From Brachypterus glaber (taxonomy: Eukaryota > Arthropoda > Insecta > Coleoptera > Kateretidae), in assembly GCA_958510825.1 (NCBI GenBank), contig OY294047.1:5084001-5148000 (forward strand): a DNA stretch of 64,000 nucleotides. Direction: 5' to 3'. The translations under genes were made by a program, and so were the position numbers. Shown here one piece after another: positions 29,286 through 63,894 of this stretch. The notes beneath the pieces were generated by a model, which saw only the letters and a list, made by a program, of their open reading frames with translations, was not told the DNA's origin and ran no database searches. How positions within the stretch are numbered: position 1 is the first letter of the stretch; every line of letters starts with the position of its first letter.

Positions 29286-29542
29286 CTAACATTTTTCCCT
29301 TATAATCGTAACTTTTCGTCTATTAATTGATTCGTTCGGTATAGAAACAGGTTTTGGTTCATGATTATGGTCATATAACATGCGAACTTGGTTCCCTGAG
29401 GAATATAATGTTGCTCTACATTTTTTCGTGTAGTTTCGGCAACGCCAACGAGTTTTGTGAAGTTCCTTCCAATGCAAGCTATAAATGTAATTGTCCACTA
29501 ATAATTTTGGATGTTTTGGTCCTGGCAAAATGTATATAAAAC
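29286..29542 (-). CDS. mod(mdg4): Alternative terminal exon, FLYWCH zinc finger (12)
   Basis: An 85-residue subgroup 1 tail. Acceptor attttag is followed by GT (a Gly codon if preceded by G), then FIYILPGPKHPKLLVDNY. C35-x6-C42-x16-H59-x-H61, with HKTRW and HNHEPKP. The tail RRKVTIIREKC carries a terminal Cys and stops at TAG. The first residue being Gly rather than Asp still fits the GNN rule seen for every ending in the window. Confidence 0.85.
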
Positions 29543-29559
29543 CTAAAATAATTCTTATT

Positions 29560-30558: not shown

Positions 30559-30806
30559 CTATTCTCGTACAATAATAACTCTTTTCGACGCTTTAATAGA
30601 ACAATCTTGTTTTGTAGGTGGCTCATGATTATGAGCGTGCTTCATACAAATTTTACTTCCGGAGGAATATAACGTAGATCTGCACTTCTTTGAAGCATGC
30701 GTACATCTCCAACGCGTTCTATTTTCTTCTTTCCAATGAAAATTGTAGATATAGCTATCGACCATCAGTCTTGGGTGCTTAATCCCAGCCAAAATGTGTA
30801 CTATAT
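30559..30806 (-). CDS. mod(mdg4): Alternative terminal exon, FLYWCH zinc finger (13)
   Basis: An 82-residue subgroup 1 tail, the shortest FLYWCH ending here. Acceptor attttag, AT, then IVHILAGIKHPRLMVDSY. C35-x6-C42-x16-H59-x-H61, with ENRTRW and HNHEPPT. Pro7 of the LPG motif is Ala, and an extra Cys occurs in SKICMKHA. The end, SKRVIIVRE, runs to TAG. Closest in feel to exon 4 (shared NFHWKEENRTRWRC-like core). Confidence 0.85.
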
Positions 30807-31053
30807 CTAAAATAAAAACTGTTTTACATTTATTATAACTACACCGACATTAATTTTCAGTAAAAGTTAACTTTGAAATACAGAAAATAAAAAACTGTGA
30901 CACTAAAGTATTTTTTATTTTACACAACAATAAAATTTACTCGCAAACTAAAAATCATTGATCAGGAATTTCTAGTAATTAGTGAAATTAACTAAAAAGT
31001 TTACCCAGTATGAATAACACTTTACACAAACTTATTATTATTATTATTATAAG

Positions 31054-34258: not shown

Positions 34259-34524
34259 TTAAAATTTTTCTATGTTAACAATTTTGCTCGTTAGAATATC
34301 CGCTTCAGGATATTTTTCTTTAAAGTGTTCCTCGTGATTATGCATCGCCCGTATTTGTATAACGTTTCCAAAGGAAACCAAATATGCTTTGCATTTGGTT
34401 TTAATATGGTTCTTGCAGCGCCATCTTGTTTTGGATCCGGACTGCTCCTTTGAGTGGACGTTATATTCAAAACTATTCAGGATTAGTTTTGGATGCTTCA
34501 GTCCTCGTATTATGTAAACGATTC
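34259..34524 (-). CDS. mod(mdg4): Alternative terminal exon, FLYWCH zinc finger (14)
   Basis: First subgroup 3 ending; 88 residues, open from acceptor attttag to TAA but lacking an upstream ATG. GA completes a Gly codon, then IVYIIRGLKHPKLILNSF. The ligands are C37-x7-C45-x16-H62-x-H64: subgroup 3 has one more residue between the cysteines, and this exon has two extra residues (EQSGSKTRW) before them. HNHEEHFKEKYPE leads to TSKIVNIEKF, the subgroup 3 form of the basic end. Arg replaces Pro in the LPG motif. Confidence 0.82.
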
Positions 34525-34673
34525 CTAAAATAATAGGTTATTACTAAAACATGAAACATATAGACTTTATTTACAAATAATTTTACATCTTCACTTGTGT
34601 TTTTCATAATTATTTCATAAACTTTATTTTATTTTTAAAAATATATTAGCCTAATTAGGTTACCTAACCACTA

Positions 34674-37679: not shown

Positions 37680-37939
37680 CTATTTATTTATAATACCAAC
37701 TCGAAAAATTTTTGAAGATAGAGCCTTTTCAGGCACTCCTGTAAAATGGGCTCCATGGTTGTGGATGGGTCTTAATTGTATTAAACTCCCAGAAGAATAT
37801 AGGTAGGCCTTGCATTTTAACTTCTTATGGTCTTTGCAATGCCATCTGGTTTTATTGGGCTCCTTTGTGTGAATGCTGTATTGATAGTTGTCTAAGCAAA
37901 GCTGCGGGTGCTTGATACCCGGCAGGATGTAGACTAAAG
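37680..37939 (-). CDS. mod(mdg4): Alternative terminal exon, FLYWCH zinc finger (15)
   Basis: An 86-residue subgroup 3 tail without an upstream ATG. Acceptor tttttttag is followed by CT (an Ala codon if preceded by G), then LVYILPGIKHPQLCLDNY; C35-x7-C43-x16-H60-x-H62 with NKTRW. HNHGAHFTGVPEKA leads to SSKIFRV. The sequence AATAAA directly precedes the stop TAG (AAT AAA TAG), so the polyadenylation hexamer is itself coding. It sits about 90 nt beyond a TIR element. Confidence 0.82.
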
Positions 37940-38205
37940 CTAAAAAAATATATATAAGTAAATGCGAAAAAGCTATTAGTAATAAATACCTACTTTATTA
38001 GAAAACTGTATTGAGATAATATTGTTTCTATTTTCGTTTTATAATAAATTCAGTAAATCATGCATATAAGGGCTTTTTACTATACTCTGACCAGTTATGC
38101 AAGATAGTAAGGGACGAGTCCCGTTTTACACCACAGAGCGCATAAATACCATAATTATGCATATGTATCAAAAATTTAACAGATGTCGGTACTGTTTTCC
38201 TGGAA

Positions 38206-40351: not shown

Positions 40352-40620
40352 TTAAACTTTAGTGTTTCCTTTTCTATGAATTTGTACAATTTTTGAGGAA
40401 ATTGAATTTTCCGGTTTTCCTCCAATATGTGCAGGATGGTTATGTGAATGGTAAACCTCGATTGCATTACCGTACGAGTTCAAATAAGCTCTACATTTAA
40501 ACTTAAGATGGTCTTTACAGCACCATCTTGTCCTGTGAAACTCTTTGATATGAACAATGTATTCGAATTGTTCCAATACCAGTTTAGGATTCTTGGTGCC
40601 CCGTAGAATATAGATTATGC
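40352..40620 (-). CDS. mod(mdg4): Alternative terminal exon, FLYWCH zinc finger (16)
   Basis: An 89-residue subgroup 3 tail. Acceptor attttag, GC (Gly codon), then IIYILRGTKNPKLVLEQF; C35-x7-C43-x16-H60-x-H62, with HRTRWCC adding a Cys directly before C35. The KHP motif is KNP, as in exon 17. HNHPAHIGGKPE leads to SSKIVQIHRKG and TAA. The PAH spacing after the last His is shared with the other subgroup 3 members. Confidence 0.85.
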
Positions 40621-40689
40621 CTAAAATAAAAATTATTAATAAATGAAACGTGAATATGCAAAAAAAATTAAAAAAACTACTATACAGAA

Positions 40690-41475
40690 AATAACTTTTT
40701 TCACCACCAGCCTAAAAGCACATCTTTATTACTGTTCTTTTCATTGGTAGAAATTTTATTTCTCTATGACGTCAGAGGTTCTAAAAATAATAAAATTGCA
40801 CCATGGTTAATAATGCATTTTTATTCAGCTGTTTTGGAATCTGACGTTTCACATAATTATTAAATTACATTGCTATTTACAAGTGTCTTTAGGCACCAAA
40901 TTTATTTATTGCATGATAAATTAAAAAATATTAACTAAATTAGTACCTATAAAACATGTTTTACAAAAAACACTTCGAAAAGTGAAAATCATTGGTCCAT
41001 CATATTCAACCAAAGATTATACAACCCATATATTACCGTAAGGATCATAGACTATATTGATTTTTGAGGCAATAGATTCTCCCTCACAGTTTTCGCCTGT
41101 CCCCTTATTTCTGGGGGAGTACCATTTTACTTTCCATTTTTATATATTTTATCACACTTAACACGGAAACACTTTCTAACTTAATAATTTTAGCAGATCA
41201 CCAGAAAATTTCTGCCAGAAATGTCAAGTTATTCATTTGTTTTTTTAATGGGCGCGAACGGCCAGCGTGATGTTTTAAATTTATAAGCTTTTTCATTAAA
41301 TTTTAGTAAAATAAATAAATAGCTAATTAATTGTACTGGTAGTGAAAAAAATACTATATTTTCCACGTAAGTGAAGATTTAACATTTAGGCCGCGTCTTG
41401 CGGGCTTCGCGCTAGCGCGCTCATCCCGCAATTTGACGCAGGTCAAACATGTTAAACTTCTCTCACTTGGTAAAT
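40690..41475. repeat. Inverted partner of 49357-50190
   Basis: About 790 bp repeated in opposite orientation at 49357-50190, including the GC-rich hairpin gcgggcttcgcgctagcgcg, actcccccagaaat-type words, and the family C block also found at 2217-2606. The two arms enclose FLYWCH exons 17 and 18 and the first recombinase C-terminal exon. Confidence 0.7.
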
Positions 41476-42495: not shown

Positions 42496-42749
42496 TTAGA
42501 TTCGTTGAATTCTAAAAGCTTTTGAAGAAAGTGTATGGGATGGAATTGTCGAATGATGGATTGGATGATTATGGGATTGGTGTAGTTGGATCAGATCACT
42601 AGATGAGTACATATAGGCTTTACATTTAAATTTTGCATGGTCCTTGCAATACCATCGGGTTCTGTGTAGGTCTTTTCTATGGCACAAAAATACGAAGTTT
42701 TCAAATAACAATTTGGGGTTCTTGTTTCCTGGTAAAATGTAAACTATAC
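42496..42749 (-). CDS. mod(mdg4): Alternative terminal exon, FLYWCH zinc finger (17)
   Basis: An 84-residue subgroup 3 tail. Acceptor tttttag, GT (Gly codon), then IVYILPGNKNPKLLFENF; C35-x7-C43-x16-H60-x-H62, with HRTRWYC and HNHPIHHS. The conserved SSG turn is SSSD here. The tail LSSKAFRIQRI ends at TAG. Closest to exon 16 by the KNP motif and KDHxKFKC core. Confidence 0.85.
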
Positions 42750-42816
42750 CTAAAAATATATTAAATTAGGAAAAACTAATAAAATATATTGTTATACATT
42801 ACCCTTTAACATTAGG

Positions 42817-44788: not shown

Positions 44789-45051
44789 TTATTTTAAATA
44801 ATTTCTTTCAATATTAAAAATTTTAGTGGAAACAGTATTTCGTGGTTTAACTGTATGATGTTCTGGATGATTATGATAGTCATAAACACTTATTAAACAC
44901 CCTGAGGAGTACAAATATGCTTTACATTTATATTTTTTGTGATGTTTGCAGTACCAGCGAGTTTTCAATTTTTCTTGTCTGTGGAGAACGTATTCAAAAT
45001 TTTCCAATATAAGCTTTGGGTGTTTTGGTCCTTGTAGAATGTAAACTTCAG
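44789..45051 (-). CDS. mod(mdg4): Alternative terminal exon, FLYWCH zinc finger (18)
   Basis: An 87-residue subgroup 3 tail and the most upstream FLYWCH exon in transcript order. Acceptor acttttag, CT (Ala codon), then EVYILQGPKHPKLILENF; C35-x7-C43-x16-H60-x-H62, with LKTRWYC and HNHPEHHTVKP. The tail STKIFNIERNYLK ends at TAA, which overlaps AATAAA (minus, 44788-44793). Gln replaces Pro in the LPG motif. Beyond it toward higher coordinates the endings switch to the recombinase type. Confidence 0.85.
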
Positions 45052-45379
45052 CTAAAAGTAGAATATTTTAAAATTTTCTTTATTATTTTAATTTAAATAA
45101 TAGACTACTTTTTTTTATAAAAACCACTAAGGTGGACCATAAGTCACTTTTAAAAATTTAAAAATTAAATAACTTTTTTGTTTGTCTATTTTTTTTTATT
45201 TATGTCTTTTACAATATAGAATACAAGAAATGGAAATTTTTCTGAACTATGTACAAAATATCATGTCTTTTAAATGACGTCCATTTTCCGCTTTGCAAGC
45301 ACGGGCTCTTTCACGACATTTTCCATGACGTCTCTTAACATGTTTGGCTCCAGCTAGGGTCATGCATCAACGTGAATTG

Positions 45380-47891: not shown

Positions 47892-48299
47892 TTAAAGAAC
47901 CTTATAATTTATAGATTTTTGTAAATAACGCAGTGAAGCTGAAGTTTGTTTCAAACAATGCCCTGTGTACTCCTTCCAATTGGGCAAATTCAAATAGCAC
48001 GCAACCTCTCTGGGTATGCAACCAATTTTATGGATTCCCATTACCGATCGATGGCATTTTCCATTGTTATATTTCAGAAAAAAACGTCGATCCTTCATAT
48101 CATCTGGTCGAACAGAAACATATTTTCTGCAAAGCGTAATAAAATTATCGCCCTCAATTGTAAACGACCTTGTCGTATTTGTTCTACTGTCACGGATTTT
48201 TATGTGGATTAAAGTTCCTAAGTCTTCTACATCGTCGATACTCATTTTTACCATTTCGTCGCATCGACATGCTCCAGATATTCCAATTATTAAAACAAC
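47892..48299 (-). CDS. Recombinase module 1, C-terminal exon
   Basis: Terminal exon of a Crypton-like tyrosine recombinase (phage-integrase fold) ending; 135 residues. Acceptor attttatttag, then in phase 0 VVLIIGISGACRCDEMV. GACRCDE holds the box I catalytic Arg (residue 12 of this exon). IDDVEDLGTL, the RRFFLKYNNGKCHRS stretch, and YTGHCLKQTSASL (box II, His at 114) follow. In active relatives box II is H-x-x-R; here the Arg is Lys. The protein stops 18 residues later, before the block that normally carries the nucleophilic Tyr. It joins to 51603-52045 through a 3303-nt intron. About 81% identical to the sister exon at 60862-61269 by eye. Probably a domesticated DNA-binding or interaction module, catalytically inactive (inference). 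Confidence 0.85.
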   Translation of the reverse strand, partial: VVLIIGISGACRCDEMVKMSIDDVEDLGTLIHIKIRDSRTNTTRSFTIEGDNFITLCRKYVSVRPDDMKDRRFFLKYNNGKCHRSVMGIHKIGCIPREVACYLNLPNWKEYTGHCLKQTSASLRYLQKSINYKVL

Positions 48300-48341
48300 C
48301 TAAATAAAATATGAAATATTAAAATTTTACTACATCCATCA

Positions 48342-49240
48342 TTAGGGTGGACCTATACATTTTTATAATCTTAAAATTATTATTTCTGTGTAACTAGAAC
48401 ATTCTAAAAATGTGAGAGTGATCAAACTACTCTAAGAGTCCTAATTGGACCACTAAAATTCGTAAATTACCATTAAATTAGTTAAAAATACGTGAAAATT
48501 GTCTGTAATTTTTGTATAAGTGAAAAATTTAAAGAACTTAAAATTCTATATTTTTCCTTTTGAGAATACAAAATTATGTGCCAAATTTCAAAATCATCAA
48601 ATGATTCTAACCCATTCCGAAGAGTCCAAACCCCTAACGCAACGTGCTAAGCGCCAAATAAGAACTCATGAACATTGGCGCTTAGCTCTTTTTGTTTTAG
48701 TTAAATCATTTTAATATAATGAATAGTTATTAGAATTCATTAAATAAAAATAAATTCAGTCCAGTTTAATACATTTTTAAAATGTTTGTTTACCGTTTGA
48801 CTCACACTTATGCTATAAATTCGTAAATTTTAGTGTTAGGGGCAACTTTGGCGGATTTTCGGCCAGGGTTAGAATTACATGCATTACATGTTCGTTTAAC
48901 CTGGTACTATTCTACTTAATTAAGCATCCCCTAAGTCCAGAACTTGTGTGGGCTAGTAGTAGAGGGAACCACCGGCTTATACCGACTTTCGAACCAGTTT
49001 ATAGGGAGTGTCCGTTTCACTTATCTCCTCCAAATTTTAATTATTAATTAACTGAAAAATTCAAATCGGCGCCAGTGAGAATTGAACTCACGCTAGTCGT
49101 CTTGCTATGTAAACGCGCTAGCCACTACACTATGCCTCCCCACCCTTAGAGAAGTTTGATCACTCTCATATTTTCAGAATTTTCTAATTAAACCTATGAA
49201 AATTAATTAAAGATAATAAAAAATATAAGGTCCACCCTAA
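48342..49240. mobile_element. TIR element, ttagggtggacct ends, with nested SINE
   Basis: Ends ttagggtggacct and aggtccaccctaa; inner inverted words gtgagagtgatcaaac and gtttgatcactctcat. The SINE at about 48899-49146 lies inside. Located in the intron of recombinase module 1. Confidence 0.65.
48899..49146 (-). mobile_element. tRNA-derived SINE
   Basis: On the minus strand: ggaggcatagtgtagtggct (box A region), tgagttcaattctcactggc (box B region), then a body with taattaataattaaaatttg and aagtgaaacggacactccc, ending near ccaggttaaacgaacat. It matches the SINE at 51040-51300 over its whole length. Confidence 0.8.
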
Positions 49241-49356
49241 TACATCATGGTAGTTATTATTAGATTTATAGAAGTTTAGCTTTGGGGACTTACTGGATTT
49301 ATAACAGTAGATATTTTAAATTTGCATACAAAATAAGAATTGTTAAATAGTATATT

Positions 49357-50190
49357 ATTTACCAAGTGAGAGAAGTTTAACATTTTTGACCTGCTTCAAA
49401 TTGCGGGATGAGCGCGTTAGCGCGAAGCCCGCAAGACGCGGTCTAAAATGTTAAATCTTCACTCACGTGGAAAATATAGTATTTTTTTCACTTCCAGTAC
49501 AATTAATTAGCTATTTATTTATTTTACTAAAATTTAATGAAAAAGCTTATAAATTTAAAATATCACGCTGGCCGTTCGCGGCCATTAAAAAAACAAATGA
49601 ATAACTTGACATTTCTGGCAGAAATTTTCTGGTGATCTGCTGAAATTATTAAGTTTGAAAGTGTTTCCGTGTTGAGTGTAATAAAATATATAAAAATGGA
49701 AAGTGAAATGCAAAGTGATGATTCTGGTACTCCCCCAGAAATAAGGGGACAGGCGAAAACTGTGAGGGAGAATCTATTTCCTCAAAAATCAATATATGGG
49801 GGTTGTACCTCTAGTAATCTATGATCCTTACGGTAATATATGGGTTGTATAATCTATGGATGAATATGATGGACCAACGATTTTCACTTTCCAAAGTGTT
49901 TTTTTGTAAAACATGTTTTTAGGTACTAATTTAGTTAATATTTTTTAATTTATCATGCAATAAATAAATTTGGTGCCTAAAGACACTAGCACTAGTAAAT
50001 AGCAATGTGATTAATTAATTAAGTGAAACGTCAGATGCCAAAACAGCTGAATAAAAATTCATTATTAACCATGGTGCAATTTCATTATTTTTAGAACCTC
50101 TGACGTCATAGGTAGAGAAATAATATTTCTACCAATGAAAAGAACAGTAATAAAGATGTGCTTTTAGGCTGGTAGTAAAAAAAATACATT
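49357..50190. repeat. Inverted partner of 40690-41475
   Basis: See the landmarks agcgcgttagcgcgaagccc, ttgacatttctggcagaaat and ggtactcccccagaaataag. The right part (49797-50190) is the family C repeat. It lies inside the intron of recombinase module 1. Confidence 0.7.
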
Positions 50191-50691
50191 AAAAAATTGT
50201 TTATTATAGGTACACATTAAACATAGAAACTTTTCAATACTAAGGGTTTAGGTGAAGATTGTCATAACAGAAAAGATTTGGAATTAATTTTTTAAGAGCC
50301 ACTTGCACCAACGGTGATTTTACTTTAAACTTAGATGAAATTGATAGTGAACCAATTATAACAAGATATCTTGGTACAAGTTATGGTAAGTATAACTAGC
50401 AATCTTAACAAGCAGTAATATTAATAGTATATTATGCAAAAGTTTTTTGCTGAGACGGAGTCGAGGCAAAAAATCAGTCGAGAACACTTAAGACAGTTCG
50501 CATACGTGGTGTATATACCATTTTTTCTACTACCTAAAAGTAGTAACTCCAAATATTAGTTACTAATGTAGTTTAAAAACTATTTTGACATAGCTGTCAG
50601 TCTGACAAGTAAGTTGAAAAAAGTTAGCAGCTGTCTTAATTTTTTTCATTATTGACCGTCGTCAATAAACAATGCTTAACAACGGTCAATA

Positions 50692-51379
50692 ACACAGGTT
50701 TACAAAAAAAAAGTCAGGACTATTTGACCGGACCATGGTATTCCTAGGTATTTTGGCGCCCTGAATCAGATCCCGGGGTCAGTTTTGCCCCATCACGTCA
50801 GGCAAACGAGATTTCAAGGTCATTTGGAGGTCAAAATGGTGATTTTTTGGGAGCGGCCCCGGGACAACATCTCAACGTTCAGAAAGTATTCAAGACCTAC
50901 ACAGTTACCCTTGAAGTTAACAGGTCGCTTGAGATATTGTTCCGGGGCCGCTCCCAAAAAATCACCATTTTGACCTCAAATGACCTGAAATCTCGTTTTC
51001 CTGACGTGATGGGGCAAAACTGACCCCAGGATCTGATTCAGGGAGGCATAGCGTAGTGGCTAGCGCGTATGTATAGCAAGTCTACTATCGTGAGTTCGAT
51101 TCTCACTGGCGCCGATTTGCCTTTTTCAGTTAATTAATAATTGTAATTTGGCGAAAGCGATAAGTGAAACGGACAATCCCTAGAAACTGGTTCGAAAGTC
51201 AGTATAAGCCGGTGGTTCCCTCTACTACTAGCCCACACAAGTCCTGGACTTAGGGGATGCTTAATTAAGTAGAATAGTACGAGGTTAAACAAATAAATAA
51301 AAAAAAATAAATAAAATACCTAGGAATACCATGGTCCGGTCAAATAGTCCTGACTTTTTTTTTTTTTGTAAACCTGTGT
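50692..51379. mobile_element. Harbinger-like MITE carrying a SINE
   Basis: Ends cacaggtttacaaaaaaa and its inverse, flanked by TAA. Comparison with the uninterrupted copy at 1700-2103 shows the empty site as ...gtcaataataaatgag..., which fits a 3-bp TAA duplication, typical of PIF/Harbinger. GC-rich arms (gggagcggccccgggac and gttccggggccgctccc) form a long inverted repeat. A SINE interrupts the right arm. Confidence 0.75.
51040..51300 (+). mobile_element. tRNA-derived SINE nested in a MITE
   Basis: Starts ggaggcatagcgtagtggct (box A region), with gagttcgattctcactggcg as box B. The body has ttaattaataattgtaattt, aagtgaaacggacaatccc and ccggtggttccctctactac, and the tail is a (taaa)n run. It sits in the right arm of the 50692-51379 element and is therefore younger than it. 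Confidence 0.85.
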
Positions 51380-51602
51380 AATAAATGAGTTTACTAATTT
51401 TATTGGTTGTCAACGTAAACAAGCCTTGACAACGGTAAATAATATGTAAGCTAGCACTTAATTAGGTAGTAGAAAAAATATCTAATATCATACATTTTGA
51501 TCTATAAATTTTAATCATTAATTTTAGGGAGACTAAAAAGAGTTTGAGGTTTGGACTTTTTCAAAAAGTTCCACTTATGTTTAATAATAAAGTTCAACTT
51601 GC

Positions 51603-52045
51603 CTTCATTCCTAAATACTTTTCATCAGAAGCGTCGCATATAAATTTTTCAAACTGCTCTCTTGTAAATACTCTTGATTTTTTAGGAACATAACCTTTAT
51701 TCTGCTTCTTTAGATATTCACGCACTCTTGAGTATTTACTTATATCTAGACCATTATTGCTACTCAGTACAGATTTTATCATTGAATATTGAGACCACAT
51801 CGTCGAGCTTTTTACATTCATTTTAGCCTGTTCAAAGAAGTATCTAAGGAAAGCATTTTCGGTATAATCGGTTATACCATTTCCTTCGCACCATTTTATG
51901 AATTTTTTATATGCAGCTTGATAGACACTGCTTGATTTGGTTGGCACTATATCTGCGTCTTTAGTGCCTTCTTCAGTGGATTCTTCAGTGTCTTTTTCAG
52001 CCTTAGGTAACATGTAAATAAATTCTGGTTCACACGTAAGAAAAT
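51603..52045 (-). CDS. Recombinase module 1, N-terminal exon
   Basis: Acceptor tttttttag, then AT completing a GNN codon, the phase used by all endings here; the frame reads FLTCEPEFIYMLPKAEKD. After an acidic, Glu- and Thr-rich linker comes the SAM-like N-terminal (core DNA-binding) domain of Crypton-type tyrosine recombinases: VYQAAYKKFIKWCE, SSTMWSQYSMIKSVL, DISKYSRVREYLKKQNKGY, VPKKSRVFTREQFEKF, then KYLGMK. The donor is AAG|GCAAGT, a GC donor. Splicing there to 48299 gives YLGMK-VVLIIG in frame, as in intact relatives; reading through adds only AS before a stop. It encodes 148 residues including the split codon; with the C-terminal exon the ending is 283. The internal ATG is not a likely start because CEPEF upstream is conserved in the sister copy. 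Confidence 0.85.
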
Positions 52046-52125
52046 CTAAAAAAACAACAATTTTAGTATTTTAGTAATTATTTAAAATCATAAGTACATA
52101 CCTATTTTATAATTTATTTTATTAG

Positions 52126-52996
52126 TCCAGCCAAATAGTAAATGTAAATTGCAATAAATGTACACGGGCTGATATTTTAAAGGGTAGTAGTGGATGGTAA
52201 CAGAACGCTCCTGTTAGTTTTTTACCGGGTGATTTGCTTAAGGGATGTCCGCTGTCTTGAATTTTAGGAGTGAGTTTCTTAATATGCATCTTACGATTAA
52301 AATGCATATAACCAATTTTGTTAAGAATAAAATTTAATACAATTCTTGTTTGGATCATTTTTTTAATATAATAATAACAATCTTGTTAATTTAAAAATAG
52401 CCATGTTGGAGATGAAATTGTTTTTTTTCCATTTTTCAGTCAAATTATTCGATAAAAGTGGTTATGTGCAAACTTGTTGCTCTTAAAATTCTCTATAAGT
52501 TTCATATATTATAAATTTTCAAAGGTACTTTCGTACGGTTACAGAGGGCGCAACTCGACTTTCAGCGCCGACTGTAACCGTAACAAAATACTTATGAAAA
52601 TGCATAATGCATAAAAATTATAGAAAATTTCAAGAGAGACAAGTTTGCTCATAACCACTTTTAACTTCCGATGAATAATTTGGCTGAAAATCGAAAAAAC
52701 CAACTTCGCCCCCAACATGGTAATTTTTGAATATCTATAACTCGATTGTTATTAATATATTAAAAAAAAATATTTAAACAAAAATTGTTGGAAATTTTCT
52801 CCCTAACAAAATTGGTTATATGCATTTTTATCGTAAGATGCATATTTAGCGAAATAACCACACTCACCCCTAAAATTCAAGATAGCGGTGAAAAATCAAC
52901 AGGAGTGTTCTGTTACCATACACTACTACCCTTTAAAATATCAGCCCGTGTACATTTAATGCAATATAACATAGGAATTTTTCGTTATTTGACTGG
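52126..52996. mobile_element. Foldback element, copy 2 (without nested insert)
   Basis: Sister of 22571-24071: arms ccagccaaata and tatttgactgg, then gggtagtagtggatggtaac and gttaccatacactactaccc in inverted orientation. It lacks the 23334-23964 segment. Frames inside arise from the palindrome. Confidence 0.75.
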
Positions 52997-53290
52997 AGTA
53001 TCTGCCTTTGGATTTACATGATGCTCAATAAGCATTGCTTAATAATATCCACTTATTTTATTAACCTTATACATAATAGAAGTATGGTTTCAGTAGACTC
53101 TTAAATGACAAAAAAGTTTACCCAGCACCTTGGCGCTGCCTAGCCATTAGTAAAATCAGCTGTCAGGAAAAGCGTTTTTTTTTTTAACCACACTTAAATA
53201 ATAATAATAATAAATCTTTAAAACTTCAGCCTGTTTTGCTTCCAAACAAAACTTTCAACTTTGGTTTTCATTAATTTAATTAATGCAATA

Positions 53291-53875
53291 ACACAGCCAC
53301 ACAAAAAGAAAAAAGGTCGTGCATTGTGGTCCTATTTATTTTGAGGCGCTGAATCCGAATTTTAGGACAAAATAGCACCTCATACGATTATTTTTGGAGA
53401 TAACCACAAAAAAACTTATTTTCGAGTATGAAAATAAGGTTTTTTTAGGTTATCTCCAAAACTAATGGGGCAAGGTGTTATTTTGACCTCAAATTCAGAT
53501 TCAGCGCCTCAAAATACATAGGAATACAATGTTTTCTGAGACAATTCTTGACCTTTTTTTTTTCTTTTTGTTGCCATGTAGTCACACAAAAAAAGGTCAA
53601 GACTTGTTTCTGAGACCATTGTATTTCTATGTATTTTGTGGCGCTGAATTCAAATTTGAGGTCAAAATAGTACCTCATCCAATTAGTTTTGAAAATAACC
53701 TCAAAAAACGTTATTTTCGAGTAAATTAATGGTAAGTTTTTCGATGTTATCTCCAAAACTAATGAAATAAGGTGCCATTTTGACCTTAAATTTGGATTCA
53801 GCGCCTCAAAATATATACAAATACAGTGGTCTCCAAAAAAATTCCGGACCTTTTTTTCTTTTTGTGTGGCTGTGT
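53291..53875. mobile_element. MITE, CACAGCCACACAAA family
   Basis: Ends cacagccacacaaaaagaa and its inverse, flanked by TAA. The interior alternates inverted copies of tgaggcgctgaatccgaatt, and a second internal gtagtcacacaaaaaaagg marks a fused second unit. Three-base TAA duplication fits PIF/Harbinger. Confidence 0.75.
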
Positions 53876-53949
53876 AATTATTTTCATACTTTTTATACAC
53901 ATAGAATCGTTTCATAAAGTGTATCTAATTATAATTTTAGTAATATTTA

Positions 53950-54065
53950 ATCTCTTCTTCTTCTTCTTCTTTAAAGTGTCCTTTTGGACACTAAATTACA
54001 TGACCCAAAAGGACTTAATGGTCTTGAACTCTCGTTCTTTTTGACCAGATACAAGTATTAGAGAC
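53950..54065 (-). mobile_element. SINE-like sequence with (ttc)n tail
   Basis: Starts with (ttc)n followed by gtgtccttttggacac, a perfect 16-nt hairpin-forming palindrome-like word, and cttgaactctcgttcttt. Orientation is minus if the (gaa)n run is the tail. Tentative. Confidence 0.35.
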
Positions 54066-54099
54066 TTGAAGCGAGTCTCTCCAATCGTTTCAACTAAAT

Positions 54100-54950
54100 A
54101 TAATTTCTTATTAACATAACCTCAAAAAAAAAGTGGTTAACCCACAAAAGTACATCACAAACATCAAATATTCAATTTAAATATGGAGGATGGTTTCGCA
54201 ATATTAATATTTCCACTACAAACACATTTTAACATAAAATAGTCTGGCTGTGACTAAACACCGTTAAATGAATTACAAAATCGCGCCGTAGACTTCTTGC
54301 CGGTTCCGCGTAAGGAAAGCAACTCCAATATTTAATCTCAATGTCTATTCGAAAATTTTATTGTTTTTTAATTGCATTACTTACATTACAATTTATTTTA
54401 TTAAAATTCGTTAAATATTATAAAAATAAAAGTAACTTGAAATTCTTAAATTAAAACTTATTTCTAAATTAAAAAAAAAGAAGAACAGTTGAATTGAAAA
54501 TAAATAATACAAACGTAAGAGTTCTTTACTTTAATGTTTTTAAAAGGAGTTTAGGGTAACTGACATTAAATGAAAATTTTTCAAAAGCATAAACTTAAAA
54601 AAAAAGTTATAAAATTCAGTTATTTAAATTTCGATTATTTTGGATCCAACTGTAAATACAATATTTATGGTACGAGAGAGGAAAGTAAGATTTTACCCAA
54701 AAGAAAATTAACCTACGAGGCTAAAGGCGGAGTGGGTTAATTTAGAGAGGGCAATATTAGTTTACTCATTAGTGACATACAATGTTTTATCCAATAAATA
54801 GCTTAGAAATTTAAATTTTTGTTAAACAACTTGATGACATTTACAAGAAAATTATTGATCAAGACTTGTGACAATTGAGTGGTAAAATAAATAATTGTTC
54901 AATCTGTAAAGTAAAAACCACGTGCGGGTTCTTATTTTCTTTATTTAAAA
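54100..54950. other. No feature recognised
   Basis: AT-rich spacer between the two recombinase modules. No exon-like frame behind an acceptor and no clear repeat borders. Confidence 0.4.
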
Positions 54951-54959
54951 TATGGCTAG

Positions 54960-57290
54960 TAGGAGGAAATACCCATGAATGGGACATATTATTGAATGGG
55001 ACAGTACCTGTTCCTAAGCTACGCTTCGTAATTTTTGGTTTTGCCCTAGATGCGCAGTTAAAAAATCACACAAAACTGCAAAGTTTAGGCAGCTGGGTTT
55101 TTGACAAATTTAAGTTTTACCAAGTAAAAAGTAGATTTTTTTAATAATTTTAAATTATGGTTTATTGACGAAAGGCAAAAGGAAACTGTTTGAATTTGGT
55201 TTATGTAATAGTCTAGATCAACACAAAATATATGCCAAATAATCGAATATTATAGATAAAGGTAAATATTTTTAGCCTATTTTTTTTGATAATATTGTTA
55301 GTATTATTGAATGGGACAATTTGCATATTTCATTCCTATCCATCTCTTTTAGATAAGAAATTATTCTAAAAGGGCAGAAAGTGTCTAGGGTACAATTTGA
55401 AACAGTTAGAACTCAAAATAAACTAATAATCTATTTTTTTTGTTATGATATGACATTATAGGTTTATTTTTATTAGTTATAGTGATAATAATAGTTATTT
55501 TTATGATTTAATAGAAATTTCGTAGTAGAGGAAAGTCGCCTAATTTCGGATACCATTTACAATGTATTCAATATTTAATACTCTGTATTACTTTTTGATA
55601 TTTTTTTTATATAACCAGATACAACTTATTATAGCGAACCATGATTTATTATAAAAGCAATTTTATTACAGTTTATTTTTTCCAAAAAACACGGTTAAAA
55701 AAAATCAGCGCATTTTTGTGCATTTGAAAAAGGGCTCCTAATTTCGGACATATCCGAAAATATTTTTTCAAGAGTAGATCTGGATCCCATTGCTTATGTT
55801 TCTTGTTATTCCTTCACATTCAAGACGTAATTTAATCATTAAGCGATTTTCTACGAAATACTATAGGAACTATAATTTTAGATTCCCAATTTCGAATATC
55901 TTAGTATCTTAGGTAATTTTCGTTTTTTCAAAATTGTTTATCTTAGTTTGTTGTATCATTATAAAAAAAATAATTAATGGTTGGTTATCCTGAATATTAG
56001 TTACCTTGCGGATATCCGAAATTGGGAATCAAATGCACAAAAATGGTCTATCCGAAATTAGGCAACTTTCTGCTTTTTAGATTAGAAATTTGTAGAATGT
56101 TTACGTTTTCAAATTGCTTAATTATGAATAGTGGATCAACTTAACTAACATCATAACTTACCCAAGACAGAATCACGAACTTTTATAACGATTATTTATA
56201 AAATAAACAAGCATGATAATGCAACTGAGCACAAAACTGCCATTTGCAATATAAACGATCTGTGCTGCCATTTAAAGGGGAGAAGCTCTACCGTTATCAT
56301 ATTACAGGACTGATTTAGTTTGACTTTTGGCTTCACATAAAAGTAGGTTATCTTAAATACACTACTATCCGAAATTTGGAAACCATCCGAAATTAGGCGC
56401 ATTTCCTCTACCGTGTTCATGAATGGGACAAGTTACGTTTTTTTTTTTGAAATGGTTGTAGTTTTGGTAAAATTAAATATTATTCAGGTTTAACACTTGG
56501 ACTGTGTTCTTTTATTTCCAGATGTAACTAAAAAAAATACATATGAAATATTAAAAATAAAATTTTTCAGCTGTTTTAAAAAAAGTGTCCCATTCATGGG
56601 TATTTCCCCTAATTCTCTTAATATCTGTATTTATTGGATAAAATATGTTATAATATAATATATTATATTTATTATTCAAAAAAATAGTAGGGTAGATTAA
56701 CACATTACGCAACTCCACGGAGCTCCGCAGATAGTATAATAAAGGTGGTAAAATGGGACAATTTGCATATTTCATTCCTATCCATCTTTTTTAGATGAGA
56801 AATTACTCTAAAAGGGCAGAAAGTGTCTAGGGTACAATTTGAAACAGTTAGAACTCAAAATAAACTAATAATCTATTTTTTTTGTTATGATATGACATTA
56901 TAGGTTTATTTTTATTAGTTATAGTGATAATAATAGTAGTACCGTGTTCATGAATGGGACAAGTTACGTTTTTTTTTTTGAAGTGGTTGTAGTTTTGGTA
57001 AAATTAAATATTATTCAGGTTTAACACTTGGACTGTGTTCTTTTATTTCCAGATGTAACTAAAAAAAATACATATGAAATATTAAAAATAAAATTTTTCA
57101 GCTGTTTAAAAAAAAAGTGTCCCATTCATGGGTATTTCCCCTAATTCTCTTAATATCTGTATTTATTGGATAAAATATGTTATAATATAATATATTATAT
57201 TTATTATTCAAAAAAATAGTAGGGTAGATTAACACTTTACGCAACTCCGCGGAGCTCCGCAGATAGTATAATAAAGGTGGTAAAAATAGA
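54960..57290. repeat. Repeat cluster with cccatgaatgggac palindromes
   Basis: TIR-like ends ggaaatacccatgaatgggac (54963) and the inverse at 56581-56611 and again at 57113-57143. A unit of about 530 bp is duplicated: 56413-56740 recurs at 56943-57270 almost unchanged, and 55318-55504 recurs at 56756-56936. The first unit carries the 55528-56408 insertion and the second does not. No gene recognised. Confidence 0.65.
55528..56408. mobile_element. TIR element, gaggaaagtcgcctaatttc family, copy 1
   Basis: Ends gaggaaagtcgcctaatttc and (inverse) gaggaaatgcgcctaatttc, flanked by TA. The duplicate unit at about 56940 (gtagtaccgtgttc) is the empty site and confirms the TA duplication, typical of Tc1/mariner-like elements. 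About 880 bp, mostly without long frames, with inner inverted words around tgcacaaaaatg. Confidence 0.8.
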
Positions 57291-57675
57291 CAACCACCTG
57301 AATATTGAAATGTATATTTAACAAGAGTTTTGAAAAGGAATCTATCGAGTTTTAAGTATCACCCCCAAAGGAAGTCTGTAGTCTCGAAAAAGATAGCGGT
57401 CACTTAATTTTTTGTATTCAAATTTAAGAAAAAATCTCTTATTTAATGTAATCAGCTCAGACAGAAGGTCCAAAGGGTCAAATAATCTTTTGTTTTTAAT
57501 TTTATTAGTACCTAATAAAAAAAATCTTAAAGCTGTCTTACCATGGGCAAGTTTCATGACAAGAAATTATAAGAAATCAACCAATACTAGTCTTCTAAAT
57601 TTAAATTCGGAAGATTATTTTGGCTGATTTTTTCTTGTATAGGATGAAACTTGCCTAATGTAAAACTGCTAATAT

Positions 57676-59689
57676 ACAGGGTGATCAATAACTGGCATGC
57701 CAAAATTTAAGAGGTGACTAATATTCACTGACTATACATCCAAAAATATGAAAAAAGTTCTCATAAAGGTTAGTCGGAAAATGAGCTCTAGCTCCCACGG
57801 CGTTTAAAAAAGAGTTTTTATTTAATATCTCTGAAATCTTGTTAACCACAATAAAGAATTTTTGCACATGCCCTAACATTAATAAAGGTTATCATTTTAT
57901 TTAGTTTTTGTTTGGTAATTTTAAATAGGACGTGCAAACACCAAACTTTTTTGCCTCTAGGTTTTTTAAACATATTATACCATGATTCCTTGGTTAAAAA
58001 TACATAAATAAGGTACTCTTAGTGTAACACCGTAGAACCAACCGTTTTCGAGAAAATTAAAAACTAAAGAGATAATTTCACGTTCCGAAAATCAAAAATA
58101 GGAATTAAAAATTGCTCCAATAAAATTTTTAATAATAGAGGAAATGCGCCTAATTTCGGATGGTTTCCAAATTTCGGATAGTAGTGTATTTAAGATACTG
58201 TGTGCAAAGGTAAACAGAAACCTACTTTTATGTGAAGCCAAAAGTCAAACTAAATCCGTCCTGTAATATGATAACGGTAGAGCTTCTCTCCTTTAAATGA
58301 CAGCACAAATCGTTTATATTGCAAATTGCAGTTTTGTGCTCAGTTGCATTATTATGCTTGTTTATTTTATAAATAATCGTTATAAAAGTTCGTGATTCTG
58401 TCTTGGGTAAGTTATGATGTTAGTTAAGTTGATCCACTATTCATAATTAAGCAATTTGAAAACGTAAACATTCTACAAATTTCTAATCTAAAAAGCAGAA
58501 AGTTGCCTAATTTCGGATAGACCATTTTTGTGCATTTGATTCCCAATTTCGGATATCCTCAAGGTAATTATTATTCAGGATAACCAACCATTAATTATTT
58601 TTTTTATAATGATACAACAAACTAAGATAAACAATTTTGAAAAAACGAAAATTACCTAAGATACTAAGATATTCGAAATTGGGAATCTAAAATTATAGTT
58701 CCTATAGTATTTCGTAGAAAATCGCTTAATGATTAAATTACGTCTTAAATGTGAAGGAATAACAAGAAACATAAGCAATGGGATCCAGATCTACTCTTGA
58801 AAAAAATTTTTCGGATATGTCCGAAATTAGGAGCCCTTTTTCAAATGCACAAAAATGTGCTGATTTTTTTTAACCGTGTTTTTTGGAAAAAATAAACTGT
58901 AATAAAATTGCTTTTATAATAAATCATGGTTCGCTATGATAAGTTGTATCTGGTTATATAAAAAAAATATCAAAAAGTAATACCGTGTATTAAATATTGA
59001 ATACATTGTAAATGGTATCCGAAATTAGGCGACTTTCCTCTACAGGAAGATTCTAAAACTATAAAACAAGTTCCTATGTACCTGGGTCCGAATTTCAGTT
59101 TTAAGAGTACTACTAACGTGTCTTGAAAAGTAAAACTTCCTATTTTGTTTGTGGTCATTTGTATATCGAAACTTAATTTTAGTGTTTTTAATGTATAATC
59201 ACCTAAATATTTTATTTGCGCATTTTTTAGTTTATATTTTTGATGCACAGAACTGAAATTATGCATTTAACTTTAGTTTCGTCGAAAACGGTGCTTTCAC
59301 GGTATACCCGAGAGTGTACTTTATTTATATAGTCTTAACCAAGGAATCATAATATGTTAATAAAATGTTGAAACAAACTAGAGGCGAAAAAGTATGGGAC
59401 AAAAAACTGACAAACGCCCTTCCATTTTGCAAGCACCTGTTTAAAGTTTCCAAACAAAAATTACATAGGATGATAGCCTTTATCAATGCCATTGCATGTA
59501 CACAAATTCTTAACTGTGGTGTAAAAGATTCCAGAGATATAATAAAAACTATTTTTTAGGCTCACCCTTAGGAGAGCCGTAGCTCTCTCAGAGCTCATCC
59601 CCAGGCCAACTTTTATAGAACCTTTTTTTTTTATTTTTGGATATACAATTATCCCTTAAATTTTGGCATGCCAGCTATCGATCACCCTG
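57676..59689. mobile_element. Foldback element, cagggtgatc family, with nested insert
   Basis: Arms cagggtgatcaataactggc and (inverse) cagggtgatcgatagctggc, both flanked by ta-rich sequence. Inner arms pair ataaaggttagtcggaaaat with the decayed tccccaggccaacttttat. The 58138-59040 element is inserted in it. Related to 33431-34162. Confidence 0.7.
58138..59040. mobile_element. TIR element, gaggaaagtcgcctaatttc family, copy 2
   Basis: Inverted relative to copy 1 at 55528-56408 and very similar throughout (for example ggagcccttttt, gggatccagatctactcttg). Flanked by TA on both sides. Inserted inside the 57676-59689 foldback element. Confidence 0.8.
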
Positions 59690-60404
59690 TATGTGTTGCT
59701 ACAATGAAAGTAAAATTCAGGGACTATTTCACAAACAATATATAGGCCAATCAAAACCTTGCATTTTTAGTTTCTTGAACAATCAGTTCAAAATGAATCT
59801 GATAATTTTTGCACATGTGCAATTATCACTTGGTTACTATGGAAACAAGAAACTGACAGTTACTGACATCTTAATAAATGTTATATTTTTGCAAAATGTG
59901 TTTGAAATTTGTGAAGCTTATCTTTAGTTGATTTATTTTTATTGATAAGCAATATAAATGCTTATTTTATTACCAAAACATCCTAGGTATAAACCCTAAT
60001 TAATTTCAGATAATGTATTATATTTTATGCACTTTTCATCTTAAAAGCTTTAAATTACTGATATTCATAAATTTTAATTTATTTAATCGAATCTTGGTAT
60101 TCAAAACAGGCTACTCAAAACTAATTTAAACACTTAATTATTAAAATTATATTTACAGTAAAGAAGTAAATAATTTACTTCTTTTAAATGACGGAACCCA
60201 AAACACCAAACCGATCCCAAATTGTTTTTTTACGGGTGGAAACAACCGTTATTTTATTTCTTTTCAGTTGAAAACTAAACTTTTTAAACAAAAACAGCAA
60301 TGATTTTTATTTAAATGCTAAAATATATGATAACAACTATTTGATTGGAATAGTCTCAAGCATAAAATATCCCTCAAGCAAAGTTTAGATTTGCCAACAT
60401 TCGC

Positions 60405-60545
60405 GAACAAGTGAACATCGTGGTTATAAAAAGCGCGGCAAATTTTTGATTTGAATTGAAACAAGTGAACATCGTGGTTATAAAACAAGTGAAAAAGTGA
60501 ACATCGTGGTTATAAAAAGCGCGGCAAATTTGAGATTTGAATTGA
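60405..60545. repeat. Short tandem repeat
   Basis: The unit caagtgaacatcgtggttat plus aaaaagcgcggcaaattt is present twice, with a shorter copy between, followed each time by gatttgaattga. Origin unknown. Confidence 0.6.
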
Positions 60546-60687
60546 TATTTTAATTATAGTTGTAAAGTAATATTGTTGTTTAGTTCTTAAATTTTTAATT
60601 TAAATATGAAACAACATTAGACATGGTAAAATACTTCCTTATTTTGTTTGTGAAATAGTCTTTCAAAATACTATTCGTGCATGTTGA

Positions 60688-60802
60688 ATTATACATAATT
60701 TTTTTACTGTATATAAAAAAACATTTTGCTTAAGGAAATTGAAATTGCCAAGCAATATATTTTTTTAATACAGTAAAAAAATTATCGATAATTCAACATG
60801 CA
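60688..60802. repeat. Hairpin-forming inverted repeat
   Basis: gcatgttgaattatacataa and attatcgataattcaacatgc, then ttttttactgtat and atacagtaaaaaaa, pair to give a hairpin of about 115 nt with a loop containing ttgaaattgccaagc. Probably a small MITE lying about 60 nt past the stop of recombinase module 2. Confidence 0.6.
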
Positions 60803-60861
60803 CTTATGATATTACTACTGAGTAAATCTTAGTATCTACCGCAGTGACCAAATTGGCAAGT

Positions 60862-61269
60862 TTAAAATACTTTAAAATTGACAGATTTTTGTAAAAACCG
60901 CAGTGAAGCTGAAGTCTGTCTCAAACAATGTCCCGTATATTCTCTCCAATTGGACAAATTCAAATAGCACGCAACCTCCCTGGGTATGCAACCAATTTTA
61001 TTAATTCCCATCACCGATCTATGGCATTTTCCATTATTATATTTCAAGAAAAATCGCTTTTCCACCATACCATCTGGACGCACAGAAGCATATTTCCTGC
61101 AAAGGCTGATTAAATGCTCGCCCTCAATTGTAAACGATCGTGTCATGTTTGTTTTGCTGTCAGGGATTTTTACGTGAAGGAGAGTTCCTAAGTCTTCTAT
61201 ATCGTCAATACTCATTTTAACCATTTCTTCGCATCGACAAGCTCCACATATTCCAATTATTAAAACAAC
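60862..61269 (-). CDS. Recombinase module 2, C-terminal exon
   Basis: Acceptor tttttcag, then VVLIIGICGACRCEEMV in phase 0 with the box I Arg at residue 12. LSNWREYTGHCLRQTSASL keeps box II H-x-x-R (His 114, Arg 117), unlike copy 1. The exon is the same length as copy 1 (135 residues) and again stops 18 residues after box II. The remaining end, RFLQKSVNFKVF, contains no Tyr, so the nucleophile is missing rather than displaced. About 97 of the 120 residues following the RCDE/RCEE motif match copy 1 by eye, while flanking introns differ, which suggests selection on the protein. Joins to 63482-63894 across 2212 nt. Confidence 0.85.
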   Translation of the reverse strand, partial: VVLIIGICGACRCEEMVKMSIDDIEDLGTLLHVKIPDSKTNMTRSFTIEGEHLISLCRKYASVRPDGMVEKRFFLKYNNGKCHRSVMGINKIGCIPREVACYLNLSNWREYTGHCLRQTSASLRFLQKSVNFKVF

Positions 61270-61328
61270 CTGAAAAAATATGACTTGAAATTATTTTTAT
61301 TTTTAATTTGAAAATCAACGTGGTTCTT

Positions 61329-62011
61329 ACAGTTGATTTCAACAAAACTGGAAAAGTAGGGTTAAGTAAAATTTCATGTTTTCCATAAAATTTAGTTGTG
61401 TGAATGTGGATTATTTAAATGGGGTTATGCTTGTTTGAAAAATAAGGTTAGTTTAACCATGTCAAAAATCATATGTTATTCTATGCATTTGTGTTTAGTA
61501 AATACTATTTGGATTTTGAAGCGTATCTCTATTGTTAATTACTGTATTTCTGCTCTAAAATATCTCTATTCTCAAATGTCTATTATTAAATCCCCTTGTC
61601 AATATATTTTGTATCTAATAAACTTGTTTTAAATACCTTTATTTTTAAAAAACACTACTAGTATATTGGTCTCCTACAACTAGGTATTCCTCATAGTTCC
61701 ATAATTTGAAAATTATAATTATGGGTTTTACACCAGTATTCTTCGAGTATTCTTGTTTTTCTGCTCTATCTCTCCCAATTTTAAAAAAATACACCAACAT
61801 TTTTTGACTTTGACATTGATGTGGCAATAACAATATTGACACTAAATTTATTAACAAGTAAAGAAATATTTGTCAAATGAAAGATAGTTCACAATGTAAT
61901 TTTTTTTTATAAACTGTCTATTATGATATAAACTACCTATTAGTAGTTGAATGAATAAATAAATGAATAAATGAATAACCCCACTTTTCCAGTTTTGTTG
62001 AAATTAACTGT
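61329..62011. mobile_element. TIR element in the intron of recombinase module 2
   Basis: Ends acagttgatttcaacaaaac and its inverse, extending through tggaaaagtagggtta. The ~36-bp terminal repeat encloses about 610 bp without a recognisable transposase. Confidence 0.75.
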
Positions 62012-62313
62012 ACAAGATTGCTGTAGTTTTACTACATAAATATTTGTATTTTTACGTGTATTTGGGACCTGTTAAAATTTGTAAAACAAAACAAATAGCA
62101 AAAGTAAATATAAGAATATGAATTTGGAAAGTTGTAATGGAACTAAAGAAACAATAAGAAAACAAGTTCTTAAGAAATCAAAGCAGATGGTTCTGGGGCT
62201 GTGTAAGCCCAAAAGATAAAATAGTTTAAAAAATATATGAACCATTGGAGAATAGACACATAGCGTCCAGAGGAAAAAAGAATCCATTATAATGAATTTA
62301 TATATTATTGATA

Positions 62314-63114
62314 ACACAGGCCCACAAAAGAAAAAAGTGGGCTGTGCTGGGGTTGAGACCTAACTATTCTTATGTATTTTGGGATGCTGAATACGAATCT
62401 GTCATAAAAAAGGCCGTCTGCTTATTTTGTTTCTACACTGAAAAAACTGTCACAAAAAAAGTGGTCTGTGCTGTGGTTAAGACCCACGGATTCTTATGTA
62501 TTTTGGGATGCTGAACACGAATCTGCCATAAAAAAAGCCACTTTATGGGCTTATTTTCTATCTAACACTGAAAAAACTGTCTGGGCCCACAAAAAAAAGT
62601 GGTCTGTGCTGGGGTTGAGATTCGCTTATTCTAATGTATTTTGGCATGCTGAACAGGAATCTGTCATAAAAAAGGCACTTCATCGGCTCATTTTTTTTCT
62701 ACACTGAAAAAATATTATGGACCCACCTATTCTTATGTATTTTGGGATGCTGAACACAAATCTGTCATAAAAAAGGCACTTCATAGGCTAATTTTTTTTC
62801 TACACTGGAAAAACTGTCTGGGGCCACAAAAAAAGAGTGGTCTGTGCTGGGGTTTAGACCCACCTATTCTTATGTATTTTGAGATGGTGAACAAGAATCT
62901 GTCATAAAAAATACTTCAATGGCTCATTTTTTTGTTACACTGAAATAATATGAGATTTTTACCATTTTAGACAGTGTTTTCAGTGTAGCAAAGGAATGAG
63001 CTGATGAAGTGCCTTTTTTTTATGACAGATTCGTGTTCAGCATCCCAAAATACATAAGAGTAGGTGGGTCTCAACCCCAGCATAGACCACTTTTTTTATT
63101 TTGTGGGCCTGTGT
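62314..63114. mobile_element. Harbinger-like MITE with internal tandem units
   Basis: Ends cacaggcccacaaaag and (inverse) cacaggcccacaaaataa, flanked by TAA. The interior has about five direct copies of a unit with gtggtctgtgctggggtt, tattttgggatgctgaacac and tctgtcataaaaaaggc, and the last unit is inverted. Belongs with 50692-51379 and 53291-53875 by its ends. Lies in the intron of recombinase module 2. Confidence 0.75.
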
Positions 63115-63481
63115 AATCAATAAAGATATTATCATCGTAGAGATTTCACGTTTAATTTGGTGGCCTCGAAAACATTGTGATCAGTAAAAGACAAAATAAA
63201 AAGCAAGGAAAAAAGAACCAGAGCAGAACCAATAGATTTTACCAGATCTGCAGAATAGAGAACTTAAAGAGAACTTAAACTTGAATAGAACATGCTGGCA
63301 GGCAATACCTGAACCATTTTTGCAATGTTCTGTCAATCAAGGACAAAAAAGAGAAGCCTTGGCAACACAACATTCAAAATGGTTGGGCCAAATAAGAAAA
63401 AATTCTGGAATACTCTTGTACCAGGGTAAATTTACATTTAATGCTTATTATTTCAGCATATGATTATAAGATAAAACTTGC

Positions 63482-63894
63482 CTTCATTCCTAAATATTTT
63501 TCATCAGAAGCTTCATACAGGAATTTTTCAAATTGCTCTCTTGTAAACACTCTTGATTTTTTAGGGATGTGACCTTTATTTTGATTCTTTAAATATCCAC
63601 GTAATTCAGAATATTTGCTTATATCAATTCCATGATTGTGATTCAATAAAGATCTTATCATAGAATATTGTGACCACATTGTAGAGCTTTTCATGTTCAA
63701 TTTGGTGGCCTCGGAGAAATAAGCCAATAAGGTGTTTTCGGAATAATCAGTAAAATTGTTTTCCTCGCACCACCTTATGAATTTGTTATAAGAAGCTTGA
63801 TAATGTTTGAGTGATTTGGCTGGTACTTGATCGGCTTCTTTGGCGCCTTCTTCAGCCTCAGGCACGTAAAATTCTGGTTCGCACATGACAAAGT
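63482..63894 (-). CDS. Recombinase module 2, N-terminal exon
   Basis: Acceptor tttttttttag is followed by AC (a GAC Asp codon if the upstream exon ends in G), then FVMCEPEFYVPEAEEG, a shorter acidic linker than in copy 1. The SAM-like domain follows: HYQASYNKFIRWCEEN, SSTMWSQYSMIRSLL, DISKYSELRGYLKNQNKGH, IPKKSRVFTREQFEKF, KYLGMK. The donor is AAG|GCAAGT, the same GC donor as copy 1; read-through gives ASFIL and a stop. It encodes 138 residues including the split codon, giving a 273-residue ending with the C-terminal exon. The first Met is internal to the conserved CEPEF block, so an ATG start is unlikely. Nothing 5' to it is in the window except about 100 nt of intron. Confidence 0.85.

Follow-up and report, generated by a model that had tools for sequence, protein, structure and literature searches.

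The insect gene mod(mdg4) is a textbook case in which one BTB protein is given dozens of targets by exchangeable tails. In Drosophila and other insects, the BTB common part is spliced to one of many 3' exons, most of which encode FLYWCH domains (PMC4667647, PMC9723646); in flies and moths this splicing is partly in trans, and the gene of Tribolium has been termed cis-spliced (PMC4667647). Domesticated Cryptons are already known as well. Among KCTD1 and the other DUF3504 genes, isoform b of KCTD1 combines a BTB domain with a Crypton-derived tyrosine recombinase (YR) domain from which catalytic residues have been lost (PMC3212892). Here, a 64-kb stretch of the genome of the beetle Brachypterus glaber (the window, C10:5084001-5148000) was analyzed; module and FLYWCH coordinates are window positions unless prefixed C10, C2 or C18. 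Its minus strand carries 18 FLYWCH exons (898-45067) and, upstream of them, two intact two-exon YR modules, A and B. The window is part of the mod(mdg4) alternative 3'-exon array, and A and B are probably alternative endings of this gene, which would provide the BTB protein with a Crypton-like-derived YR tail that lacks the catalytic tyrosine and is most likely DNA-recognising.

Recombinase modules in the mod(mdg4) exon array

The common exons of mod(mdg4) were found outside the window, on the same contig and on the strand of the modules (C10:5754099-5754455 (BTB), 5750526-5750820 and 5749438-5749569, minus). The BTB exon matches PF00651 (E 2.4e-26) and is 94-97% identical to four beetle models, taken from a set in which the Dendroctonus and Cylas members bear the name modifier of mdg4. 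The joined common part comprises 261 residues ending in ...GEGQ. Its last exon ends CAAG/GTAGGT (here and below a slash marks an exon boundary) in phase 1, approximately 601.5 kb upstream of module A. Since the common exons lie on the same strand and the last one ends in the matching phase, the host gene of A and B is mod(mdg4).

All 20 entry exons of the window (18 FLYWCH, A and B) are on the minus strand and are entered in phase 1, with ag followed by two bases before the first whole codon; for the FLYWCH exons, 15 of the 18 acceptors were displayed directly and the other three (frames 30559, 37680 and 40352) were readable inside the extracted stretch. An earlier note on this DNA had proposed that two complete YR modules stand in line with the FLYWCH exons, on the same strand and in the same phase, which is what was found. 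It had also taken A and B for endings of a BTB/FLYWCH-type gene; BTB exons of fitting strand and phase do exist on the contig, and the BTB exon is not in the window itself. The PF04500 cut-off was exceeded by three of the four FLYWCH exons tested, the fourth scoring 23.4 vs 23.6 bits. Here and below, all counts and closest copies from searches of the B. glaber genome refer to the matches listed. At least 87 FLYWCH matches, all minus, were found at C10:5.02-5.66 Mb (of 150 listed), and this number is a lower bound because just 7 of the window's 18 FLYWCH exons are among the 87. A tblastn search with 121 YR relatives and 11 fused proteins revealed no further YR sequence in the window except two short N-terminal remnants. 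From the compatible phases, we infer that A and B are spliced to the common exons. This could occur in cis or in trans, as the exons are about 600 kb apart and mod(mdg4) of flies and moths is partly trans-spliced.

The products of A and B, of 273 and 283 aa, contain no internal stops and are 75% identical. The internal intron is located at the same codon in both (GMK/VVLIIG, phase 0) and has the same GC donor (Table 1). Of the identical exon length and intron position that had been claimed for the two copies, the intron codon and exon 2 (408 nt in both) bear this out, and exon 1 does not (413 vs 443 nt). Module A contains an ATG 8 nt past its acceptor, at the start position of its free relatives, and ACG is found at that place in module B. 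A third module, C, lies between the common exons and A. It has the same intron position, shares 44% identity with A over 123 residues of exon 2, and its acceptor is likewise 8 nt before an ATG. Module C is most similar to a Crypton-like copy of the same genome (66%), with a dN/dS of 0.19 against that copy.

Gene models of other beetles contain the predicted fusion. Three long proteins are related to module A, two of which are Euwallacea models with BTB (PF00651) and a YR tail. A search with the Euwallacea N-terminal part was then examined for the best 120 of 2,985 proteins. These are mostly beetle isoforms, named 'modifier of mdg4' or 'tramtrack' or nameless, and most have FLYWCH; 11 of the 120 have a YR tail (Euwallacea fornicatus 5, E. 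similis 5, Dendroctonus ponderosae 1). The BTB-recombinase fusion protein that the earlier note had envisaged is thus represented by gene models from two Euwallacea species and Dendroctonus, in which the mod(mdg4) BTB region is joined to a YR tail. When 115 of the 120 were compared (eight species; the other 5 omitted), every isoform had G, E, D, A or V directly behind the common part, as expected of a common exon that contributes a single G to the next codon. In the 11 fused models, the tails belong to two separate groups and all are joined at the same residue, with a G/NN codon. Such agreement among three species speaks against annotation errors caused by nearby transposons, which would leave the BTB link unproven anywhere; names like 'isoform X2' do suggest predicted models, and yet we regard this explanation as highly improbable.

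Another improbable reading, if slightly less so, is that the mod(mdg4) array harbours A and B as small independent genes, each driven by a promoter of its own. The ATG of module A would suit such genes, as would P0011, a Euwallacea YR model of 278 aa without BTB. However, module B has ACG instead, a strong acceptor that matches the common exon in phase stands at the start of both entry exons, and the BTB part is present in the 11 models.

Truncation of the recombinase and selection on the tails

The core-binding and catalytic domains of the YR fold were recognised in the tails. The retained part aligns with Cre residues 25 to 308-319, which we take to be the part of Cre that embraces DNA, and the part lost would contain the catalytic tyrosine. 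All 21 tails compared end no more than 24 residues after the HxxR motif, before that tyrosine. The catalytic set R-H-R-H/W-Y is incomplete in A and B: the first R and H are retained in both, the second R is K in B, and the sequence ends before the homologous H/W and Y. All five residues are present in 45 of the 67 other relatives of the tree set. The modules are very probably catalytically dead because the protein ends before the catalytic tyrosine.

After HxxR, 14 of 18 residues are the same in A and B, and this tail is absent from free elements, so the two modules most likely split after the truncation. An element intron as the source of the shared truncation was considered and dropped, because this genome also contains four copies whose C-terminus is complete and which continue past that point without a change of frame. 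No match to module A was found among PDB sequences at E<=1, and no family named DUF3504 was among the Pfam matches of A or B at E<=1.

Of the 819 bases aligned between the coding sequences of A and B, 161 are different, and no stop has arisen. The same number of random changes introduced 7.9 stops on average, and in 2,000 trials a stop-free sequence never resulted. The estimates were dN 0.141 and dS 0.741, with a ratio of 0.19 (0.14-0.27 with other estimators). The changes between the copies had previously been called mostly conservative and suggestive of selection, and these values agree with that; they indicate that the YR fold of the tails is kept under purifying selection.

The genome contains many Crypton-like copies, groups of them with equal scores, and module C, nearest to such a copy, also has a dN/dS of 0.19 against it. 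One could therefore suppose that A and B are no more than decayed or silent copies of a transposon whose place in the array and fitting phase are due to chance. This is very unlikely. The 273 codons are free of stops at 20% divergence, and the ratio of 0.19 is measured since a shared, already truncated ancestor. Among the matches listed, copies other than B stay at or below 53% identity to A across the catalytic exon (55% in one piece of 68 residues). In a self-comparison of the window (E<=1e-20, >120 bases), the A-B pair aligns over exon-sized stretches only. In addition, related tails are joined to BTB in the weevil models.

Probable Crypton-like origin, a second array and the number of captures

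The relatives of the modules are mostly insect and chiefly beetle proteins (best 120 of 173). They include insect proteins of 345-412 aa, and P0001 matches PF00589 (E 4.9e-12). The tails appear to derive from insect Crypton-like elements, a label given here for insect occurrence and YR alone, not by comparison with Repbase Crypton sequences. Since six relatives (P0078, P0079, P0084, P0089, P0098 and P0110) read through the position of the module intron and the own-genome copies L030 and L031 break there, the simplest view is that the element brought the internal intron with it; the ...K-A-S... of three of these relatives would fit the same GC donor. The former start codon, too, most simply came from the element. 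L028 (C2:44.912 Mb) is a copy closely similar to C, and its ATG likewise stands 8 nt behind an acceptor. Its C-terminus is complete, and elsewhere it has a 93% identical relative (L036), whose alignment stops short of the acceptor place. In our judgement L028 is a free element; its frame is broken and it is positioned inside the second array described below. An acceptor before the ATG in all such elements was not supported, as it is found in L028 and not in L030, L012/L018 or the remnant. A pattern search of viral contigs gave 104 fitting stretches, none of which was confirmed as a relative.

The second array is located downstream of another BTB gene, which we take to be lola. Two BTB exons were found at C2:46.0086-46.0096 Mb; the product begins MDDDQQFCLRWNNHQ, and the third exon of the gene ends CAAG/GTAAGT in phase 1. 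Entry in phase 1 was found in six of six modules with the first exon checked, and in nine of nine together with A, B and C; three of these nine are close tandem copies, and the acceptors were assigned by reading the sequence. The three tandem copies are 81-89% identical, with dN/dS of 0.28-0.31. For a further copy, at C2:44.8963 Mb, exon 2 alone was found, and one C2H2 exon with phase-1 entry is found inside the array. Thus, the lola-like gene apparently also uses YR tails. A similar truncated module with phase-1 entry (L055, C18:5251380-5254133, plus) has no BTB match close by among the matches listed.

In an 81-row tree, A, B, six Euwallacea tails and P0011 form one group (99/97) apart from all sampled free elements, and the remaining five tails from weevils fall into a second group (100/99), placed among other elements. 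A single origin was rejected by the AU test both for 14 tails (p 0.008) and for 21 tails (p 1.8e-6), although the groups had been defined with a tree already in view, a circumstance for which the test makes no correction. A 93-row tree adds module C, own-genome copies and the second array, and 21 tails were counted as captured, among them P0011, C and six lola-side modules without a fused model. On this tree the captured label requires seven changes, all forced by well supported branches. The bootstrap is unsettled, the changes may include losses and the sampling of free elements is uneven, so 'several' is a safer count than 'seven'; the trees suggest several independent captures.

Outside the mod(mdg4) group, A and B have their closest relative in a THAP-YR fusion of 685 residues on short contigs (P0121; not counted among the 11 BTB-YR models), whose YR has no H/W motif. 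DUF4806 (PF16064) is another ending of weevil mod(mdg4) isoforms (P0131, P0133, P0191 and P0235).

Table 1. Coordinates of the modules, FLYWCH exons and second array
Feature	Position	Strand	Details
Module A exon 1 (N-terminal core-binding part of YR)	63482..63894	-	413 nt; acceptor ttttttttag/AC, phase 1; donor AAG/GCAAGT
Module A intron	61270..63481	-	2212 nt, GC-AG, phase 0
Module A exon 2 (catalytic-domain part to HxxR, 18 more residues, stop)	60862..61269	-	408 nt incl. stop
Module B exon 1	51603..52045	-	443 nt; acceptor tttttttag/AT, phase 1; donor AAG/GCAAGT
Module B intron	48300..51602	-	3303 nt, GC-AG, phase 0
Module B exon 2 (catalytic-domain part to HxxK, 18 more residues, stop)	47892..48299	-	408 nt incl. 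stop
Module C	C10:5403552-5403128 + 5401907-5401485		between common exons and A; phase 1
FLYWCH alternative 3' exon	44789..45067	-	open frame limits; exon begins at ag inside
FLYWCH alternative 3' exon	42496..42765	-	open frame limits
FLYWCH alternative 3' exon	40352..40711	-	open frame limits
FLYWCH alternative 3' exon	37680..37994	-	open frame limits
FLYWCH alternative 3' exon	34259..34537	-	open frame limits
FLYWCH alternative 3' exon	30559..30849	-	open frame limits
FLYWCH alternative 3' exon	29286..29576	-	open frame limits
FLYWCH alternative 3' exon	28343..28624	-	open frame limits
Five similar FLYWCH alternative 3' exons	14285-14611, 14868-15158, 16263-16538, 18662-18985, 19242-19565	-	frames
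FLYWCH alternative 3' exon, only first part of domain	11254..11580	-	open frame limits
Four FLYWCH alternative 3' exons	898-1155, 2630-2887, 3768-4061, 5209-5490	-	frames
YR modules, second array	C2:44.896-44.912, 45.909-45.910, 45.953-45.956, 45.977 Mb	-	genome search, among matches listed
Second array (L002, L027, L028, L037, L051-L053)	C2:44896341-45977773	-	
BTB gene of second array	C2:46005557-46009670	-	upstream, same strand

The frame 10747-10974 resembles the remainder of the FLYWCH domain begun at 11254..11580. The intron of module B contains repeats and a Crypton-like remnant on the other strand, and a short degenerate stretch in the intron of module A (~63100-63180, minus) is similar to part of A exon 1, possibly a trace of a further copy. 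The repeats 40696-41486, 49346-50183 and 2231-2604 are related (~90%), and two of them retain a short piece of the YR N-terminus, as would be expected of a non-autonomous Crypton-like element. The tRNA-like matches 49067-49139 and 51042-51114 lie within two 91% identical repeats (48891-49140 and 51041-51293), probably a tRNA-derived SINE. Elsewhere on the contig (C10:42735952-42754855, plus), FLYWCH matches follow another BTB gene, which reaches 63% against the mod(mdg4) BTB exon of P0122.

Possible function and relation to known systems

The proposed mechanism is that RNA of the BTB common exons, about 600 kb upstream, would be joined in cis or trans to one of many phase-1 acceptor exons. The product would carry a YR-fold tail lacking the catalytic tyrosine, connected through a long linker to the BTB multimerisation domain. 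The coding sequence of the element, intron included, would have been picked up via an acceptor just upstream of its start codon. The tail would most likely read DNA sequence, perhaps the ends of Crypton-like elements or sites derived from them, and bring the BTB complex there, because the active site has been cut away while the remaining fold stays under purifying selection. Three precedents lead us to infer that the YR tails recognise DNA. Variants N and T of Mod(mdg4) differ in the sites they bind, and N acts as a repressor of a telomeric retrotransposon (PMC9723646). BTB domains of the TTK type form hexamers (PMC11426971), so one complex could carry several YR tails. MrpR, with a YR fold and no recombination activity, is a DNA-binding repressor (PMC10516654).

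The tail could instead act through protein contact, with other YR tails or with chromatin proteins. Su(Hw), which binds DNA, brings Mod(mdg4)-67.2 to chromatin, and this isoform is distinguished from the others by its C-terminal domain (PMC5666082). This is the most serious of the alternatives, although we consider it rather unlikely: the part kept is the one that aligns with Cre, the part lost is the one that would hold the tyrosine, and MrpR exemplifies a dead YR that works as a DNA-binding repressor (PMC10516654).

Several points weigh against BTB-YR endings of the proposed kind. The joining in B. glaber is deduced from compatible phases, and module A retains an ATG near its start. The public fused isoforms look like computed gene models, and the structure was predicted for a Euwallacea relative rather than for A or B. 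No YR tail was found among the isoforms listed for Sitophilus (0/10), Rhynchophorus (0/32), Cylas (0/15), Anoplophora (0/32), Leptinotarsa (0/6) or Hypothenemus, Exocentrus and Ceutorhynchus (0/1 each), so the distribution across these eight genera and the weevils with fusions is patchy. The low dN/dS could in principle date from transposon life; the ratio alone is no proof of host use because C and its nearest copy give the same value. DNA recognition by the tail is itself deduced from analogy, and specific functions of domesticated Crypton domains have been described as very hard to propose (PMC3212892).

A bolder and rather doubtful extension is that mod(mdg4) and lola are standing capture hubs, in which a phase-1 CAAG/GT joint would meet elements with an acceptor 8 nt before the start codon, cut before the catalytic helix. 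The BTB-YR proteins would then bind the ends of their source elements and silence or insulate them, with several renewals. If true, this would be an insect counterpart of captured-transposase repressors.

Here an entire recombinase domain of transposon origin is part of the tail repertoire. Its capture apparently took place several times, in two different genes, and on each occasion it was apparently disarmed at almost the same position. Should the fusions prove to bind DNA, one could test directly how new targets are acquired by insulator proteins and whether hosts use recombinases as weapons against their own elements. Host-transposase fusions formed by splice capture join a transposon protein domain to a host domain. 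The words crypton, FLYWCH and recombinase are absent from the main text of PMC12062965, which concerns such fusions. No report of YR endings of mod(mdg4) or lola was found in the open literature searched (titles and abstract beginnings of top-ranked entries), and PMC4667647 makes no mention of a recombinase in its main text. The descriptions of mod(mdg4) consulted contain no YR ending. MrpR/YopR of prophage SPbeta is a bacterial phage protein without BTB in which the tyrosine is kept; the likeness is an analogy and implies no descent. KCTD1 is similar in composition, although its fusion is ancient, belongs to jawed vertebrates and has the YR as an N-terminal domain, whereas the beetle YR tails are C-terminal, alternative and repeated, and come from other Crypton-like groups.

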